From an uncultured Prevotellaceae bacterium (GTDB taxonomy: Bacteria > Bacteroidota > Bacteroidia > Bacteroidales > UBA3663), in the NCBI GenBank assembly GCA_900319235.1, contig ONNR01000018.1, forward strand, positions 1-64,000: 64,000 nucleotides of DNA. The letters run 5' to 3'. Shown piece after piece: positions 1 through 54,315 of the stretch (positions within the stretch are counted from its first letter, which is position 1; each line of letters opens with the position of its first letter). A program made the position numbers and the translations under genes. Below the pieces are notes generated by a model. That model saw only the letters and a program-made list of their open reading frames with translations. It did not search any database and was not told where the DNA came from.

Positions 1-1
1 C

Positions 2-103
2 AGGTATCCCTTCAACCAATCGGCGCACGACCGCAAGATGCTCCTCGAAAAAGTTGCCGAACTCAAGTCGCGCAACGACGAGCCCACTCCAAACGCAGAG
101 TAA
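2..103 (+). CDS. 3' end of an unidentified gene (partial)
   Basis: An open frame enters from the left edge and ends at TAA 101-103, giving 33 residues that finish DEPTPNAE. The visible tail is charged and probably helical (KMLLEKVAELKSRN), like many soluble protein C-termini. Codon use is normal for the window. No family can be assigned from so short a piece. The 42-bp tandem array begins 17 bp after the stop codon. Confidence 0.55.
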   Translation, partial: RYPFNQSAHDRKMLLEKVAELKSRNDEPTPNAE

Positions 104-120
104 CTCTTCCCCAATCGAGG

Positions 121-491
121 CATACAGATTCCATCGACCAAATCTTTATTCTCCGCTCGGACCATACAGATTTCATCTACCAAAACTGTATGCCGCGCCC
201 GGAGCATACAGATTCTATCTACCAAAACTGTATGCCTCGATTGGAGCATACAGATTCCATCTACCAAAACTGTATGCCGCGCTCGGACCATACAGATTCT
301 ATCTACCAAAACTGTATGCCTCGCTTGGACCATACAGATTTCATCTACCAAATATGTATGCCGCGCTCGGACCATACAGATTTCATCTGCCAAATATGTA
401 TGCTACGATCGGACCATACAGATTCTATCTATCAAAACTGTATGCTCCTATAAGAGTATAAAGATTTCGCATGCCAAATCTGTATGCTACA
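121..491. repeat. 42-bp tandem hairpin array, eight units plus a degenerate ninth
   Basis: Units start at 121, 163, 205, 247, 289, 331, 373 and 415, exactly 42 bp apart, with a decayed ninth at 457. Each opens with CATACAGATT and, 16 nt after the CATACAG arm, carries the inverted copy CTGTATG, so every unit can fold as a hairpin. Variant units change both arms toward CATACA...TGTATG, with GATTT facing AAATA. Two frames stay open because 42 is a multiple of three and the unit has no stop, but the translation is a bare 14-residue repeat with no signal peptide or start context. I treat it as non-coding. Confidence 0.9.
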
Positions 492-497
492 ATGTAA

Positions 498-529
498 CGG
501 GTCCAATTCACGATTCAGAATTGGACCCG
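498..529 (-). terminator. Hairpin downstream of the AAA-ATPase gene
   Basis: Arms 498-509 (CGGGTCCAATTC) and 518-529 (GAATTGGACCCG) form a perfect 12-bp stem with an 8-nt loop, 37 bp after the stop codon of the leftward ATPase gene. No strong T-run follows on the minus strand, so termination or mRNA end protection is inferred from position. Confidence 0.5.
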
Positions 530-565
530 CTACTGAGAAATAGACTTATACTATTGTTTTTGCAG

Positions 566-2116
566 CTAAACAATCACTTCATAGATACGTTTGCCGTTCC
601 AATCAATCCATTGCGGATTGATGTTTTTCTTGTCCTTCGAAAAGTCAAACGTGACTAAAAAACCTTCGTCCATGTTGCGGGTGGAGAGATAGGCTGCCAA
701 TTGATCACGACCGCTCTCCTCGTACTTGTCTCCTCTCCAAATCTTCAATTCGATGATGAATTCCTGTCGACCGTAAGTCACTACCAGATCCATGCGACGG
801 TTGTCGCGTGTCTGTGGTTCTACATAATAGAAGCCGGTGCCGTTGATAATGGGTTTAAGAAAAGTGAGGAATAGCAATCTTCCCTCTCGCTCAAGGAAGG
901 GCACGGTGCTGTCGCGATATTCCTCGTGCATTAGGTCGGCAAAGCGTCGGATAACGAAATCCATCTGTAGTTGTCCGTCGCGAACGTAGTTGAGTTGTGG
1001 ACGTAGTTTGCCCATGTCGGCGATGCTTTGCTCAGCGATGAAGTAGTTGTTCAACACCTCTTCAAAGATAATGTTATGGATGCGTACTTTGCGCGAGGCA
1101 TCGTACCGGATGATGCTGAACATAGTGGCAAAGTCCATCACCGGATTGTTGGCATCGTAAGTAATTGTGTCGCCCAATATGGAAAGAGAATAGATGAATC
1201 GTTTCAATTCTGGGTACTCCTCCAAGTTCTTTGTCAAACTGGTGAAGAGGGTATTCTTTTCCAAAATGGTCTGCTTGGTGGCAGTTTGCACTCCTTCCAA
1301 GGTCCAATTTTTATCCAATTCTTCATCGATGACTTTGCACAATTTGCTCACCAAAAACGGGTAACCATTGGTATATTTGTAAATCTCTTCACTGATGGCC
1401 TTGATGTCCATACCTGTATGGAAATCGGTTTCGTAGTCAGATAGCATCTGAGCTATCTCGTCGGCTTGGAAGGTCATATCAACTTTGAAGTCGGCTGCGA
1501 TGTTCCAAGGCGAGTTATATTTCTTTTCGGCATCAGGACGCAACTTCAATTTCAGGTTCTTCACGTCATATACACCTGCCAACACAATGCTGAAAAAAGT
1601 GGAATCCATACCGCTTAAACTGCGCTCCAAATATTTGTTTCGCAGCATCCCGAGGAAGTTGAGAAACAATTGATTGTCACTGCTCTTATCAACTTCATCA
1701 ATAGTCAACACAACAGGCTTTGCGCTTGTCTTGCAAAATTTCGTGATTATCGAAGCCAATTCTTCAATCGACTTGGCTGCGCTTTCTTGCCAGATACTTA
1801 CCAGTTCATCATCTGTTTTTATGGAAGCGAGACGGTTTGACATCATCTTGGAGAAGGTCCCTACGAATGCCTCTTCAGAGGCAAATGCACTATCGCCCAA
1901 TCCTTCGAAGCTCATTGGTACAACAAGGTAGCGATCTGACATTCGGCGCCAGATCATCATCAGCGTGGTAGTCTTTCCGTATTGACGTGCACGATTAATG
2001 GTAAAGTATTCTCCCATATCAACCAATTCTTCCACAAATTTGAATCTTTTGGCAGAATCGACCATATAGTGCCATTCGGGGTTACAACTACCTGTAATGT
2101 TGAATCTTTTTCTCAT
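566..2116 (-). CDS. AAA-ATPase-like / PD-(D/E)XK nuclease-like protein
   Basis: A 516-residue protein of the AAA-ATPase-like family (PF09820 type) that is multicopy in Bacteroidota and whose role is not established. Residues 44-50 (RQYGKTT) form an abbreviated Walker A, and a Walker B (VLTIDEVDK) lies near 135-145. The C-terminal part has the PD-(D/E)XK pattern: an Asp in RRMDLVV, then an E-x-K pair in IIELKIWRG, a domain associated with DUF1703/PF08011. The protein is full length. It is monocistronic, with a TATATTTG promoter at 2167-2174 on the minus strand. It flanks the 42-bp hairpin array, but nothing visible shows a functional link. Family call is confident; function is unknown. Confidence 0.85.
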   Translation of the reverse strand: MRKRFNITGSCNPEWHYMVDSAKRFKFVEELVDMGEYFTINRARQYGKTTTLMMIWRRMSDRYLVVPMSFEGLGDSAFASEEAFVGTFSKMMSNRLASIKTDDELVSIWQESAAKSIEELASIITKFCKTSAKPVVLTIDEVDKSSDNQLFLNFLGMLRNKYLERSLSGMDSTFFSIVLAGVYDVKNLKLKLRPDAEKKYNSPWNIAADFKVDMTFQADEIAQMLSDYETDFHTGMDIKAISEEIYKYTNGYPFLVSKLCKVIDEELDKNWTLEGVQTATKQTILEKNTLFTSLTKNLEEYPELKRFIYSLSILGDTITYDANNPVMDFATMFSIIRYDASRKVRIHNIIFEEVLNNYFIAEQSIADMGKLRPQLNYVRDGQLQMDFVIRRFADLMHEEYRDSTVPFLEREGRLLFLTFLKPIINGTGFYYVEPQTRDNRRMDLVVTYGRQEFIIELKIWRGDKYEESGRDQLAAYLSTRNMDEGFLVTFDFSKDKKNINPQWIDWNGKRIYEVIV

Positions 2117-3937: not shown

Positions 3938-3970
3938 GAGACTATAATTAAAGATATTTGGTGGCTTGAG

Positions 3971-4024
3971 GATCTAGAGATTCTAGAAGATCTAGACTAT
4001 CTAGAATATCTAGAGAATCTAGAG
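3971..4024. repeat. 9-bp CTAGA array between GH115 and uxuB
   Basis: Six back-to-back 9-bp units share an NNTCTAGAN core (GATCTAGAG, ATTCTAGAA, GATCTAGAC and so on). Because TCTAGA is itself palindromic, the whole array reads alike on both strands. It sits in the 94-bp spacer inside a presumed operon. Confidence 0.88.
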
Positions 4025-4031
4025 AAAAAAA

Positions 4032-9070: not shown

Positions 9071-9110
9071 AGCGCGACATGAAATGAAACTCATGCCGCG
9101 CTAGTTTTAT
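9071..9110 (+). terminator. Terminator of the P-type ATPase gene
   Basis: AGCGCGACATGA (9071-9082) pairs with TCATGCCGCGCT (9091-9102) with one mismatch, and AGTTTTAT follows. It begins 5 bp after the stop codon. Confidence 0.78.
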
Positions 9111-9113
9111 AGA

Positions 9114-9158
9114 AGATCTAGATAATCTAGAAAATCTAGAGAGTCTAGACAGCCTAGA
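9114..9158. repeat. 9-bp CTAGA array between convergent genes
   Basis: Five 9-bp units (AGATCTAGA, TAATCTAGA, AAATCTAGA, GAGTCTAGA, CAGCCTAGA) lie between the ATPase terminator and the GH10 stop codon. The core matches the arrays at 3971 and 52120. Confidence 0.88.
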
Positions 9159-9160
9159 TA

Positions 9161-10282: not shown

Positions 10283-10306
10283 TGTTTAATTATTTGGGGT
10301 TTAGGA

Positions 10307-10387
10307 ATCGGAGTAATCGGATTTTTCGGAGGGTTCGGAATAATCGGAGGAATCAGAGTAATCGGAATACTCCGAGTACTCAGAGTC
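10307..10387. repeat. 9-bp ATCGGAGTA-type array in the xylan operon
   Basis: Nine consecutive 9-bp units with core NTCGGANNN (ATCGGAGTA, ATCGGATTT, TTCGGAGGG, TTCGGAATA and so on) fill most of the 103-bp gap between two operon genes. The last unit overlaps the stop codon of the GH35-like gene (10386-10388). Confidence 0.88.
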
Positions 10388-16781: not shown

Positions 16782-16921
16782 AAAGGGATACTAAGGGATA
16801 TTTGGGGACTTTAAGGGATATTAAGGGACGATACATTCGCCTGTAGAAAAAGAGGCAAAAAAAGTATCGTCCCTTAATATCCCTTAATATCCCTTTTTTC
16901 TCTTAAAATCCCTTAGTTTTT
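16782..16921. repeat. Long palindromic element, copy A
   Basis: Arms built of AAGGGATATT units face their inverted copies. The inner 24 bp (16811-16834 and 16864-16887) are perfectly complementary, with a 29-nt loop that carries ATTCGCCTGTAGA. The outer units extend the pairing imperfectly to about 140 bp, and T-rich tracts follow. Copies B (28354) and C (33884) share the unit and the loop core. It lies downstream of the esterase gene, upstream of the SusC promoter. Confidence 0.88.
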
Positions 16922-28353: not shown

Positions 28354-28492
28354 TAAGGGACATTAAAGGATATTAAGGGATATTAAGGGATTCTAAGGGA
28401 CGTATGTTTCTTGGGCCCCCATTCTCTACAGGCGAAGGTAACGTCCCTAAATATCCCTTAATATCCCCAATATCCCTTAATATCCCTAAAAA
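28354..28492. repeat. Long palindromic element, copy B (inverted orientation)
   Basis: Left-arm AAGGGATATT units end in AAGGGACGT (28395-28403), and the right arm begins ACGTCCCTAAATATCCC (28441). About 20 of the inner 23 bp pair. The 37-nt loop read on the minus strand contains ACCTTCGCCTGTAGAGAA, matching the loop of copy A, so this copy is inserted in reverse. It lies between convergent aguA and gapA. Confidence 0.87.
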
Positions 28493-32810: not shown

Positions 32811-33884
32811 ATGAAAATCGGTTTCGACGCCAAACGCTATTACCATAATCACACAGGCATCGGCAATTACAGCCGTGCCATCATCAAGGGATTGCAAGCG
32901 CTCTATCCCGACGATGACTATCTCCTCTATGACGAGAAGACCTTCTCGCGCACCTTCCGACTGGGACGAAAGGCAGCACGCGACGGCTGTGAACTCTTCC
33001 ATGGCCTCTCCAACGAACTTCCTGCCGACATTCTGAAGAGTGGCGTGCGTTCCATCGTCACCCTGCACGACACGGCATGGCGCACCTACCCGCAGATGTA
33101 CCATTGGATCGATCGCCAAATCTACGACTACAAATATGGTCGCAGTTGCCACATCGCCAACCATGTGCTTGCCATCTCCGAAAGTACCAAGAAGGATGTG
33201 ATGCGCTTCTACGACATTCCCGAAGTCAAGATTTCGGTCATCTATCAGCCCGTCCAGGAACTTTTCTACAAACCACTCTCCAGCGACGAAGCCGACCGGC
33301 TCATTGCCGATGCGGTTTCATCGGGAATGCTTTCGGCTGCCCTTCCCAAAGACTTCATTCTCAACGTGGGCAGCATCAACAGCCGCAAGAACCTACTGGG
33401 ACTCGTCCAGGCCCTCGAGCTCATTCCTGCCGAGCAGCGTCCCCCGCTTCTCGTTGTCGGCAACGGCCACGAATATAAGCGCGACGTAATGAATTACATC
33501 GCAAAGCATCATCTCGAGCGGTATGTCCGTATCGAGACTGGTGTCAGCGACAACAAGGTGTTGCAAGCCCTCTATTCCAAAGCACTCCTGATGGCCTATC
33601 CTTCCCATTATGAAGGTTTCGGACTGCCCGTGGTCGAAGCAGCCCTCCAAGGCTGTCCCATTCTGACCAGCAATGTCAGTTCTCTCCCCGAAGCAGCAGG
33701 ACCAGGTGCCCTACTCTGCGACCCCGCCGATATCGAATCCATCCACAAATATCTCACCGAACTGCTCGACGACAGCAGCATGGCACAACGTCTGGCCGAA
33801 GTAGCCGAGGAATATGCCCGCTGCCATTTCGACCCGCGCACACTCACCGAGCAGCTGCATGAGCTTTACCTAAAAATCTGTTAG
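32811..33884 (+). CDS. GT4-family glycosyltransferase
   Basis: A 357-residue GT-B fold glycosyltransferase. Near the N-terminus GFDAKRYYHNHTGIGNYSR is the family's Gly-rich acceptor loop, and the C-terminal donor site has HYEGFGLPVVEAALQGCP with the E-x7-E motif, followed by SSLPEAAG. No membrane helix. It is probably involved in lipopolysaccharide, capsule or exopolysaccharide synthesis; donor and acceptor cannot be told. Starts one base after the YitT stop codon, so translation is coupled. Confidence 0.9.
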   Translation: MKIGFDAKRYYHNHTGIGNYSRAIIKGLQALYPDDDYLLYDEKTFSRTFRLGRKAARDGCELFHGLSNELPADILKSGVRSIVTLHDTAWRTYPQMYHWIDRQIYDYKYGRSCHIANHVLAISESTKKDVMRFYDIPEVKISVIYQPVQELFYKPLSSDEADRLIADAVSSGMLSAALPKDFILNVGSINSRKNLLGLVQALELIPAEQRPPLLVVGNGHEYKRDVMNYIAKHHLERYVRIETGVSDNKVLQALYSKALLMAYPSHYEGFGLPVVEAALQGCPILTSNVSSLPEAAGPGALLCDPADIESIHKYLTELLDDSSMAQRLAEVAEEYARCHFDPRTLTEQLHELYLKIC

Positions 33885-34026
33885 GGATTTTATAGATATT
33901 AAGGGATTCTAAGGGATATTAAGGGACATCACCTTCGCCTTTCAAGACTTTTTGGCCAAGAAAAACAAACGTCCCTTAATATCCCTAAATATCCCTTAGA
34001 ATCCCCAAGAATCCCTTAGAATCCTA
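33884..34026. repeat. Long palindromic element, copy C
   Basis: TATTAAGGGATTCTAAGG units lead into AAGGGAC (33921-33927), and the right arm opens GTCCCTTAATATCCCT (33971-33986). The inner 16 bp pair perfectly, and further units pair in shifted register. The loop holds CACCTTCGCCTTTCAAGA and GGCCAAGAAA, matching copies A and B. It sits between the convergent GT4 gene and the broken sulfatase; its first bases touch the GT4 stop codon. Confidence 0.85.
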
Positions 34027-38189: not shown

Positions 38190-39149
38190 ATGGCAAAAAA
38201 GCAAGACAATATCTTCTACCGGGTGCTCTACTACATCATCCTCGTGCCAGGCTATGCCGTTTCGCTGCTCCCGATGTGGTGGCATTACTTCTGGTCCGAT
38301 GTGCTCTACCTTTTAATTTATCGCGTAGTGCGTTATCGTCGAAAGGTGGTGCGCCGCAACCTGACGGACAGTTTTCCCGACAAGACAGAAGGCGAACTCC
38401 GCAAGGTGGAGAGGGATTTCTATCACTACTTCTGCGACCTGCTTGTCGAAGCCATCAAGTTCATCTCCATCAGCCGTGAAGAGATGCGTCGTCGCATGAA
38501 CTTCGAAGACATCGAACCTGTCCTCGACTCCTGTCGTCGCGGCAAGAACTGCGCTGTCTATCTTGGCCACTACGGCAACTGGGAGTGGATCAGTTCCCTG
38601 CAACTTTGGATCGACCCGAAGATAGGTCAATGCACACAACTTTACCATCCGCTTGAAAACCCCGCGATGGACCGACTTATGGGATATATCCGACAGCGTA
38701 TGGGTGACATCAACATCCCCGTCGAGCAGTCGGTGCGTCACTTTGTCCGCTATCGTCAGCAGGGCAGGCCTGTCCTCGTAGGCTTTATCGCCGACCAGGT
38801 GCCCCATTGGCGCAACATACACTATTGGACGAACTTCCTTAACCATCCCAAGACGCCCATCTTCACGGGTTCCGAACGACTCACACGCCAGTTCGACATG
38901 GATGCCTACTACCTCCACGTCACCCGACCTCGTCGCGGATATTGGAACGTGCGTTTCGTGCCTATGGCGCGCGACTGCAAGCAGACGCAGGAATTCGAGA
39001 TTACCGAACTCTACACGCGTCTCCTTGAAAAGAACATCCTCGAAGCGCCCCAATACTGGCTGTGGACCCACAACCGCTGGAAGCGTACTTACGAGGAATG
39101 GCTCGTCAAGAAGGAATCCTGGGAAAAGAAGTCCACCCAATCTGAATAA
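38190..39149 (+). CDS. Lipid A acyltransferase (LpxL/HtrB family)
   Basis: A 319-residue inner-membrane enzyme with one N-terminal anchor (VLYYIILVPGYAVSLLPMWW) and the catalytic H-x4-E motif in LGHYGNWEW near residue 127. It also has VRRNLTDSFPDKTE and the RPRRGYWNVRF/YTRLLE... blocks of the lysophospholipid/Kdo2-lipid IVA acyltransferase family. It adds a secondary acyl chain to lipid A. The final residues QSE and the stop codon are encoded by the first unit of a 9-bp repeat array. Confidence 0.9.
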   Translation: MAKKQDNIFYRVLYYIILVPGYAVSLLPMWWHYFWSDVLYLLIYRVVRYRRKVVRRNLTDSFPDKTEGELRKVERDFYHYFCDLLVEAIKFISISREEMRRRMNFEDIEPVLDSCRRGKNCAVYLGHYGNWEWISSLQLWIDPKIGQCTQLYHPLENPAMDRLMGYIRQRMGDINIPVEQSVRHFVRYRQQGRPVLVGFIADQVPHWRNIHYWTNFLNHPKTPIFTGSERLTRQFDMDAYYLHVTRPRRGYWNVRFVPMARDCKQTQEFEITELYTRLLEKNILEAPQYWLWTHNRWKRTYEEWLVKKESWEKKSTQSE

Positions 39150-39223
39150 TCCGAGAACTCTGAGTACTCCGAATAATCCGAAACTCTGAGGACTCCGAAT
39201 AGTCCGAGTACTCCGAGAACTCC
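39141..39223. repeat. 9-bp TCCGAGTAC-type array that supplies the LpxL stop codon
   Basis: Nine units (TCTGAATAA, TCCGAGAAC, TCTGAGTAC, TCCGAATAA, an 8-bp TCCGAAAC, and so on), all 9 bp except one. The TAA of the first unit is the stop of the acyltransferase gene. It ends 13 bp before the helicase ATG. Confidence 0.88.
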
Positions 39224-44372: not shown

Positions 44373-44415
44373 ACGGCATGACCAATCTTGGCTAAGAATG
44401 GTTATGCCGTTTTTG
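44373..44415 (+). terminator. Terminator of clpA
   Basis: ACGGCATGACCAATCTT (44373-44389) pairs with AAGAATGGTTATGCCGT (44394-44410) with two mismatches around a short loop, followed by TTTTG. It lies 68 bp past the stop codon. Confidence 0.8.
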
Positions 44416-44419
44416 TTGC

Positions 44420-44815
44420 AAGCATTATGTCGCCCGTCAGAGTGCTATTTCCCGTAGAAGAAAGCATCGCGTCGGCCGTCAGAGTACTATTTCCCGTAGA
44501 AGAAAGCATCACGTCGGCCGTCAGAGTACTATCTCCCGTAGAAGAAAGCATCGCGTCGGCCGTCAGAGTGCTATTTCCCGTAGAAGCAAGCATCATGTCG
44601 GCCGTCAAAGTGCTATTTTCTTTAGAAGAAAGCATCGTGTCAGCTGTCAGAGTACTATCTCCCGTAGAAGAAAGTATTATGTCGGCCGTCAGAGTGTTAT
44701 TTCCTGTAGAAGAAAGCATCCTGTCGGCCGTCAGAGTGCTATTTCCCGTAATAGGAAGCATTATGTCGGCCGTCAGAGTGACATTTCCGTTGGAGCAAGC
44801 CTCGTGTCGCGCAAC
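44420..44815. repeat. 42-bp tandem array, nine units
   Basis: Units begin with AAGCAT at 44420, 44462, 44504, 44546, 44588, 44630 (as AAGCAT), 44672 (AAGTAT), 44714 and 44756, exactly 42 bp apart, with a partial tenth near 44797. Each carries GTCGGCCGTCAGAGT and CCCGTAGAAGAAAGC, and differences between units are single-base. Frames on both strands stay open (143 and 119 codons) only because the unit lacks stops. The palindromic cores CGGCCG and AGTACT are present but no long hairpin arm, unlike the arrays at 121 and 44860. Confidence 0.9.
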
Positions 44816-44859
44816 TTAATGCTCTATGACGTTGACGGTACTAGTTGCGGACAAATAGT

Positions 44860-45150
44860 ACCATCTCACCACAATATTGCACTACTTGTGTACACGTGGA
44901 ACAATCTCCGCCGCAATATTGTACTGCCCGTGTACACTTGATACCATCTCACGGCAAGATTGCACTGCTTGTGTACACTTGGTACAATCTCGCCGCAATA
45001 TTGTACTGCCTGTGTACACTTGATACAATCTCACGGCAAGATTGCACTACTTGTGCGCAATTGATACAATCCTCTTCGCAAGATTGTACTACTTGTGTAC
45101 ACTTAGTACCATCTCACCGCAAGATTGCACCATTTGCGAACAGATAGTAC
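44860..45150. repeat. 41-bp tandem hairpin array, seven units
   Basis: Units start at 44860, 44901, 44943, 44984, 45025, 45066 and 45108, mostly 41 bp and twice 42 bp where one base is inserted. Each holds an inverted pair such as GTACAAT...ATTGTAC or CAATCT...AGATTG around a CGCCG-rich loop, plus the palindrome GTGTACAC. The 41-bp step shifts the reading frame in each unit, which argues strongly against a protein. Confidence 0.9.
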
Positions 45151-45152
45151 AA

Positions 45153-45996
45153 TAATCAAAAAAGGTGCAGCACCACACGATGCCACGCCTTGATGTAAGA
45201 CAATCCGTTCTGCTCTAAAAGGCATTATAGGAGAACTCGAATCGAGGCAGAGCGTTCCAGTTGTTCCAATTGTTCCAATTAATTATAAGCATATTAAAAA
45301 CGACAATTTTCTTCCTTTATTATTATATATATAATTAATATATAGATAGTTATATAATAAAAGAAATGACAAATTGGGTTCCTGAATCATCAAAAAAAAC
45401 TGGAACAACTGGAACAACTGGAACACTCGAGTATTACAAATTACCTAAAAGGCTGAATTACAACAAAATACAAACAAGCAGATGCTCTTTCCCTATGATG
45501 CAAAACCTTGAAAAACGACCAGAAATCATAAAAATTCTGCTCGCATAGGCATCAAAAGACATATAAAACCTCCTTGTTCCAATACTTTTCCCCATTCTCA
45601 GAGCACATTTCAGCGGGACATTTTTTCAGTATCCGGGTCTCGTTTGTAAGGAAAAGATCACCATGATGGCCCATTCAGGGGCCAATAGTGGCTGAAACAA
45701 GAGTCAATTGGAACATCTTTTCAAAGCTCTTTGCCGCGAATTCTATCCATATTCTATGCTTCGATGAAGAAAAAGGCCAAGTTATTTCAAGAAAAACACA
45801 AAAGTGTAAACTTTCTTAGTGTATAGCAGAATACCAAATAACTATCACCACCATTTGGTGAAGTAGTTGGTCTAATCCATACAACATCCAATATGGTTTA
45901 TGTCGATTGTCTGACAAATATAGAAATCGGATACAGTCGGCTGATGTCCATATTGTCTTCCAGGTCAGCAGTCTTCGCCTCCCTTCCAAGATGAAA
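45153..45996. other. Gene-poor stretch of 844 bp
   Basis: No convincing gene. It contains a perfect GGTGCAGCACC palindrome (about 45163), an inverted pair of 9-bp repeats (45252-45282 against 45399-45426) around a very AT-rich centre, and a GC-poor region with several stops in all frames. A 60-codon frame at 45366-45548 includes the GGAACAACT repeat and has no family resemblance. Higher A+T and loss of coding signal suggest decayed or inserted DNA. Confidence 0.5.
45252..45426. repeat. Inverted pair of 9-bp TTCCAATTG / CAACTGGAA repeats
   Basis: Three units TTCCAGTTG, TTCCAATTG, TTCCAATTA (45255-45281) face AACTGGAAC-type units (about 45399-45425) in the opposite orientation. They could form a ~26-bp stem with a ~120-nt AT-rich loop. 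Confidence 0.7.
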
Positions 45997-53916: not shown

Positions 53917-54294
53917 GCAGTAGGCCTGTCTGTCGCTCGCTCCACGCGAGAGGAAAGTCCGGGCTACACAGGGCTCCATGCCGGTTAACAGCCGGTAGGC
54001 GGCGACGTTTAGGTTAACGTAACAGAAAATAACCGCCCCGCAAGGGGTAAGGGTGAAAAGGCGAGGTAAGAGCTCACCGCACACTTGGTAACAAGGCGTG
54101 GCTGTACGTCCCATGGGTTGTAAGATCATGTATACTGGTGGTTGGTACGTGTCGGAAACGATACTGTGTCCATGAAGGGCGGCCCGTCCAAGCCAGGGGG
54201 TAGATTGCTAAAGTGCGTCAGTAATGGCGAACTCAGATCAATGGCAGACACCTGTCGAAAGACAGGGACGGAACCCGGCTTATCAGCCTACTGC
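53917..54294 (+). ncRNA. rnpB: RNase P RNA, bacterial class A
   Basis: A 378-nt RNA, the catalytic subunit that removes 5' leaders from tRNA precursors. The ends pair as P1 (GCAGTAGGC with GCCTACTGC). The universal cores are present: GAGGAAAGTCCGGGC near the 5' end, ACAGAAAATAACCGCC, AAGGGTGAAAAGGCG with GGTAAGAGCTCACCG, and GACGGAACCCGGCTTATC near the 3' end. A T-run (54296-54301) ends transcription 22 bp before the next gene. Exact ends are by pairing. Confidence 0.97.
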
Positions 54295-54315
54295 ATTTTT
54301 TACTAAAAACCGAGA

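Follow-up and report, generated by a model that had tools for sequence, protein, structure and literature searches.

The window analysed here, a stretch of 64,000 nucleotides, corresponds to contig C40 of G000, a rumen Bacteroidales MAG that comprises 3.72 Mb in 46 contigs and is 86.5% complete. Its left edge cuts through a small gene for a stand-alone AraC/MarA-type protein with two HTH units, leaving only the 3' end. The full protein has about 162-167 aa, and a 162-aa orthologue from the relative G007 (HTH_18/AraC) matches C40:2-94 by tblastn. This fragment is followed by a regular array of short units and then by an ATPase gene of the AAA_35/PD-(D/E)XK type (Table 1). An Rfam scan of the window gave no match at the array and found RNase P alone. 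All genomes used for comparison are MAGs, and the genus-mates include Bacteroidales MAGs from buffalo rumen and reindeer.

Table 1. Positions of genes, lattice arrays and other repeats within the window
Feature	Position	Strand	Remark
AraC/MarA-type two-HTH gene, 3' end (33 codons + stop)	2..103	+	recognised by tblastn with the G007 orthologue
First lattice array, type A	121..497	+	nine 42-bp units
Type-C dyad (GGGTCCAATTC...GAATTGGACCC), tenth 42-bp unit	498..539	+	in register with the nine A units
AAA_35/PD-(D/E)XK ATPase gene	566..2116	-	bystander
Short 9-bp tandem arrays (TCTAGAGAA-like, AATCGGAGT-like)	3968-4026, 9110-9160, 10306-10386, 39144-39223		intergenic
10-bp repeat array pairs (AAGGGATATT + complement)	16783-16915, 28354-28487, 33883-34024		intergenic
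Second lattice array	44378..44797	+	one F dyad, then nine D units (42 bp)
Third array, type E (41-42 bp)	44859..45153	+	TACAATCT...AGATTGTA alternating with GTGTACAC
Bacterial RNase P class A RNA	53917-54298		Rfam

Each type-A unit of the first array consists of a GCATACAG-N16-CTGTATGC dyad and a 12-bp spacer. The preliminary description had counted eight units at exact 42-bp spacing, each bearing the arms CATACAG/CTGTATG. The spacing holds, but the count does not: nine CATACAG units are present, the ninth (456-497) in the degenerate form GTATAAAG...CTGTATG, and an unrelated tenth unit continues them in register. In eight units the left arm CATACAG is exact, as described, whereas only five of the eight have an exact right arm CTGTATG, two of the imperfect arms reading ATGTATG and that of the first unit TTTATT. 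The 30-bp A dyad has eight matches in the array at up to three mismatches, against none in 100 dinucleotide shuffles. The type-C dyad of the tenth unit recurs elsewhere in the genome, in pure arrays and in arrays that alternate A with C.

A survey of 859 kb of G000 (23%: the window, five contigs and part of another) places the first array in a much larger set. This portion contains approximately 25 intergenic arrays that share an exact 42-bp lattice and mostly have 9-11 dyads each, and the CATACAG unit forms arrays at about nine further loci of the genome. Across 34 arrays from G000 and its relatives, the spacing is exactly 42 bp in 280 of 292 cases and the number of units per array is 9.6 +/- 1.1. 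The dyad alphabet comprises at least eight unrelated types that can be mixed, at least six of which occur in the surveyed 859 kb. The types include A (CATACAG..CTGTATG), C (GTCCAATT..AATTGGAC), D (CACTCTGACGGCCGTCAGAGTG), E (TACAATCT..AGATTGTA), F (CCAATCTTGGCCAAGATTGG) and G (ATGTCCCC..GGGGACAT), with H and I found beside further genes of the family described below. Arrays are either pure or mixed, with orders such as FDFDFDFDFD, FFFDFFFDFFF, CACACACACAC and ACACACACAC. A single consensus, CTCCGATCGGAG, describes the 12-bp spacers of all arrays and dyads; because this consensus is itself a palindrome, symmetry centres recur every 21 bp, or two helical turns. Such shared spacers are the opposite of the unrelated spacers between identical repeats that characterise CRISPR arrays. 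Universal terminal inverted repeats were not found, and a minority of array ends carry a CTATCTCAAATCG-like motif in register. Outside arrays, no convincing solitary dyad of type A, C, D, F or G was found in the 859 kb, the few single matches being weak.

Several other repeats came to light alongside these arrays. The F+D and E arrays of the window lie back to back (44378-45153), and the E array, with its second dyad, resembles a partial array beside a family paralogue at G000:C30:113224 (L114). Type-A units also occur in a MAG that bears the label Pseudobutyrivibrio, on an 8.9-kb contig (L063, CAMJBT010000102.1) that most likely derives from Bacteroidales and was mis-binned. Another 42-bp array, built on a further unrelated dyad, lies at L023 997-1331 (G012:C5), a locus reached via an ATPase match. 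The paired 10-bp arrays of the window form long imperfect inverted repeats of ~130 bp and have similar counterparts elsewhere in G000 (C38:7543, C38:9061 and C39:54673), and the 9-bp tandem arrays are a second kind of regular repeat.

The gene fragment at the left edge belongs to a family with 12 clear members in G000, 11 detected by BLAST and the twelfth by profile search. Full-length copies of the type-A gene end contigs C46 and C38; their C-terminal residues are the same as those of the window fragment, and the type-A protein carries HTH_18 and HTH_AraC domains. HTH_18 was detected in nine of ten G000 paralogues. No second Pfam domain, whether for an effector or for dimerisation, was found in the family proteins (126-164 aa); MarA and SoxS likewise have no separate domain of either kind. 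An AlphaFold model (pLDDT 77 overall, ~90 in the DNA-binding part) matches in Foldseek the DNA-binding domains of YesN, AdpA-DNA, AraC, SoxS and MarA, including MarA-DNA and SoxS complexes. The predicted fold of the family is thus that of an AraC-type double-HTH DNA-binding domain. A profile built from an alignment (A1) of ten G000 members, leaving out the type-C member, detected no family member outside the genus among 393 Bacteroidales genomes. An order-wide search with a more divergent alignment returned mostly AraC domains of large proteins, together with two extra members in G012. No relatives of the protein were found in IMG/VR or in phage and plasmid collections, and defence libraries gave weak, chance-level matches only. 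The type-A gene and its array lie inside a segmental duplication (L104, L105, L047 and window 1-540) with ~96% identity upstream. The similarity between C10 and C40 stops at the array end, and the assembly contigs are broken inside the type-A gene.

All 12 clear G000 paralogues adjoin an array, which in one case is weak and partial. Type-A arrays accompany two gene copies, which lie at the ends of C46 and C38 and extend into C10 and C40. An F/D array lies beside the gene at C41:94271, a G array beside that at C8:2355, an H array at C46:58155 and an I array at C5. The genes at C11, C19, C43 and C35 have D or D-like arrays, that at C30 a partial 41-bp array, and that at C33 an upstream C array. 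When the relatives G003, G004, G006, G007, G011 and G012 are included with G000, a 41-42-bp array lies beside 34 of 34 members examined; in 30 of them its start falls from -42 to +108 bp relative to the stop codon. The three divergent members in the distant relative G012, two of them additional to the 34, each have an upstream array of their own. Among controls, neither 16 other AraC-domain matches in G000 nor six stand-alone AraC-domain proteins from other Bacteroidales families have a multi-unit lattice array alongside. Most home arrays lie 3' of the gene and away from its promoter, so autoregulation is not evident.

The pairing also extends to the identity of the dyad. The closest protein in another genome has the same dyad class almost always (Mantel r 0.33, P 0.001, 33 pairs). 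Within genomes, the correlation of protein with dyad is only suggestive in G000 (r 0.30, P 0.08) and not significant in G007 or G006; the overall signal therefore comes mostly from orthologous gene-array pairs that are inherited together. Dyads G, D and F are present in 6/6 main-family genomes and 0/9 others (Fisher P 2e-4, uncorrected for the ancestry that these genomes share).

Arrays are concentrated at the ends of genes. With gene calls from a simple codon-usage script, arrays occupy 10 of 48 convergent intergenic regions versus 9 of 264 others (P 1e-4), the latter divided into 8 of 206 tandem and 1 of 58 divergent regions; those in tandem regions are mostly close to the stop codon of the upstream gene. 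An intrinsic terminator is present in 5/9 array-bearing versus 24/38 other convergent regions. One G011 locus hinted that arrays replace terminators, an idea to which these counts give no general support. Two loci illustrate turnover. In the slot after a glycerate-kinase-like gene, the array reads ACACACACAC in G000, ACFFDFCFCFFDF in G003 and DIIIIIIII in G004 and G007. The other slot, C39:104843, is array-free in G011, whose intergenic region there measures 125 bp and carries an intrinsic terminator, and in G003 the orthologous gene has no adjoining array. From these two comparisons, it appears that the position of an array can outlast its dyad identity and that arrays are also gained or lost; given the array-free slot in G011, no single array need be essential. 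G005 belongs to the genus but lacks the protein family; in a slot where its relatives hold an array, it has imperfect palindromic repeats (GGAGTTGCTG/CGGAGTTCGTG; L195, G005:C33).

The inverted arms of the window array had also been read as a possible set of cruciforms. Within each array, however, arm pairing does not exceed the expectation from independently drawn arms (168 A, 59 D and 42 F units), and the main variable arm positions show G-T and A-C mismatches equally often. Because the arms do not covary within units, hairpin or cruciform pairing is not the conserved feature, and the cruciform proposal is not supported. With the arrays brought into one orientation, the minor base at variable positions is often the same in both arms; agreement is complete in F (4/4 variable positions) and C (2/2) and lower in A (2/3), D (2/3) and G (4/6). 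This pattern suggests degenerate half-sites read by a protein rather than base-paired stems. The other proposal made at the outset, a protein-binding array facing one side of the helix, gains support from the lack of covariation, the regular spacing and the paired DNA-binding family, and is probably correct as far as sequence can indicate. Transcribed hairpins serving as terminators, mRNA stabilisers or structured RNA would suit the location of arrays at 3' ends and convergent junctions as well as the capacity of the dyads to fold. Such an origin is nonetheless highly improbable, given dyads without compensatory changes or an excess of G-T over A-C, an array without an Rfam match, units that are not followed by T-tracts, and a DNA spacing whose exactness it leaves unaccounted for. 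A coding repeat of 14-aa units is more improbable still. Although 42 is divisible by three and the window array has one frame open throughout, no frame is consistently open among arrays, and 41-bp arrays exist. The idea was rejected on a type-C array at C41:55644 that has stops in all six frames. The neighbouring ATPase had been named as a possible partner whose presence would track with the dyad across relatives. It adjoins the array in the window and lies near orthologous arrays in G004 and G007, but the AAA_35 family has a single match in G000 against ~25 arrays in a quarter of the genome. In G003 and G006, the flanks examined around ATPase homologues contain no array, and G006 retains the HTH-array pair with no ATPase within 2.5 kb. 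A general association of ATPase and array is refuted, the chance that this gene is the partner is slight, and the ATPase is a bystander; the partner is likely to be the AraC-like gene on the other side of the array.

The main rival sees the arrays as selfish interspersed repeats comparable to REP/BIME and RAYT. A gene together with its array would then be the autonomous element, and arrays lacking a gene would be non-autonomous copies that persist at gene ends because they do no harm there. The presence of the gene in a duplicated segment with its array (C46/C38 ends, C10/C40 starts), the loss of C10-C40 similarity past the array and the array-free orthologous site in one relative are all compatible with mobility, and genes flanked by cognate palindromes, hybrid arrays and co-presence of gene and site have parallels in RAYT/BIME (PMC2817692). 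Against this origin, a Y1 transposase (IS200/IS605-like, PF01797) is absent from the 86.5%-complete G000 by a search that found it in five control genomes, and the paired protein is just a DNA-binding domain, with no catalytic one. Moreover, array length is narrow, convincing solitary dyads are lacking, the boundary motif is confined to a minority of ends, inverted ends are not universal, and one slot keeps its array while the dyads change. The selfish explanation is accordingly considered unlikely, if less so than any other rival. Multi-site arrays can buffer regulators, and the proteins are of the MarA/SoxS activator type, so the arrays could be decoys that titrate AraC-like regulators active at ordinary promoters. 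This role seems improbable: with no convincing solitary A, C, D, F or G dyad in 859 kb, no promoter regulon is visible, and so many separate arrays would be excessive for it.

Comparison with described systems indicates that the parts are known, namely AraC-type domains and extragenic palindromes, and that the arrangement is apparently undescribed. REP/BIME elements and RAYT of Proteobacteria and other bacteria share clusters of extragenic palindromes whose orientation alternates and which frequently lie at gene 3' ends, as well as genes flanked by cognate palindromes, hybrid arrays and gene-site co-evolution (PMC2817692, PMC3733652). RAYT is a Y1 transposase, whereas the present proteins have an AraC-type DNA-binding domain. 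Unlike REP/BIME, the arrays keep an exact 42-bp lattice of ~10 units, have no solitary units that could be found and exchange unrelated dyads on one lattice. The compensatory changes that preserve a REP stem are not seen here, and in place of the GTAG or CGTC tag that by published definition stands at one end of a REP palindrome, the dyad consensus ends in GCAT, AGCA or GGGT. Stand-alone proteins of the MarA/SoxS type share the two-HTH fold of ~100 residues, and their monomer site of ~20 bp (PMC11633057) compares with the 21-bp half unit of the lattice. The described proteins of this type work at individual promoter sites, unlike the expanded paralogue family here, in which each member is linked to a multi-site array outside promoters. 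BrickBuilt, a minisatellite-MITE of Porphyromonas gingivalis, is also from Bacteroidales and forms intergenic tandem arrays, 19 per genome (PMC4596501). It differs in having 23-nt repeats in 1-23 copies and a leader and tail with inverted ends, and no paired protein gene is reported in the accessible portion of that account (PMC4596501); the present units are of 42 bp, with a boundary motif at a minority of ends. BldC of Streptomyces is a small DNA-binding protein reported to assemble on successive repeats (PMC5859096). It differs in being MerR-like and in regulating development. We know of no genome-wide phased arrays or paralogue-specific sites for BldC. No description of a comparable paralogue-array system was found in the open-access literature searched. 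What looks new is a paralogue family in which each member has its own phased array, together with dispersed pure or mixed arrays whose dyads are interchangeable on one lattice.

The explanation favoured here, with a probability of roughly 65%, is that the first array of the window is a phased operator array for a cognate MarA-like protein and part of a genome-wide system of such arrays. The protein encoded at the left edge of the window is proposed as its cognate binder. Each small AraC-like protein would bind the dyads of its own array as well as arrays of the same type elsewhere, so that about 12 paralogues, each with an own-dyad array beside its gene, would also serve the pure and mixed arrays at other loci. 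That the paired protein binds the array is very probable. Each 42-bp unit contains a specific dyad and the shared spacer dyad CTCCGATCGGAG. A MarA monomer occupies 20 bp and bends the DNA by 35 degrees (PMC11633057); a 21-bp lattice could therefore hold ~20 monomers with their bends in phase. At ~20 bp per MarA-like monomer, ~20 monomers would coat ~420 bp on one face of the helix, and the coated array may be bent coherently. The result would be an architectural nucleoprotein element at gene ends, acting as an insulator, a roadblock or a loop anchor. This architectural role is put forward tentatively, at slightly less than even odds. The position at gene ends, the fixed lattice, the narrow length and the lack of solitary promoter sites would favour architecture over classical regulation. 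A more speculative and rather doubtful extension is an architecture code, in which about a dozen paralogues coat and bridge the arrays of their own dyad, mixed arrays join the resulting networks, and dyad order selects which distant gene ends are joined or insulated.

Since each protein has its own multi-site array, the pairs can be tested one by one for specificity, and the regularity of the 42-bp lattice leads to a clear biophysical prediction, phase-dependent assembly. With eleven or twelve natural pairs of protein and dyad, all on one scaffold, the family also offers a ready-made data set on the code by which AraC-type proteins recognise DNA. If the arrays are selfish, they would show that repeats can spread together with a DNA-binding protein in a genome where no transposase is recognisable for them. 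If they instead organise or insulate the chromosome, they would form a multi-colour, sequence-addressed system, in contrast to general nucleoid proteins or the single-site ParB/parS. In sum, the system seems to mark or organise a bacterial chromosome in a way that has not been described.
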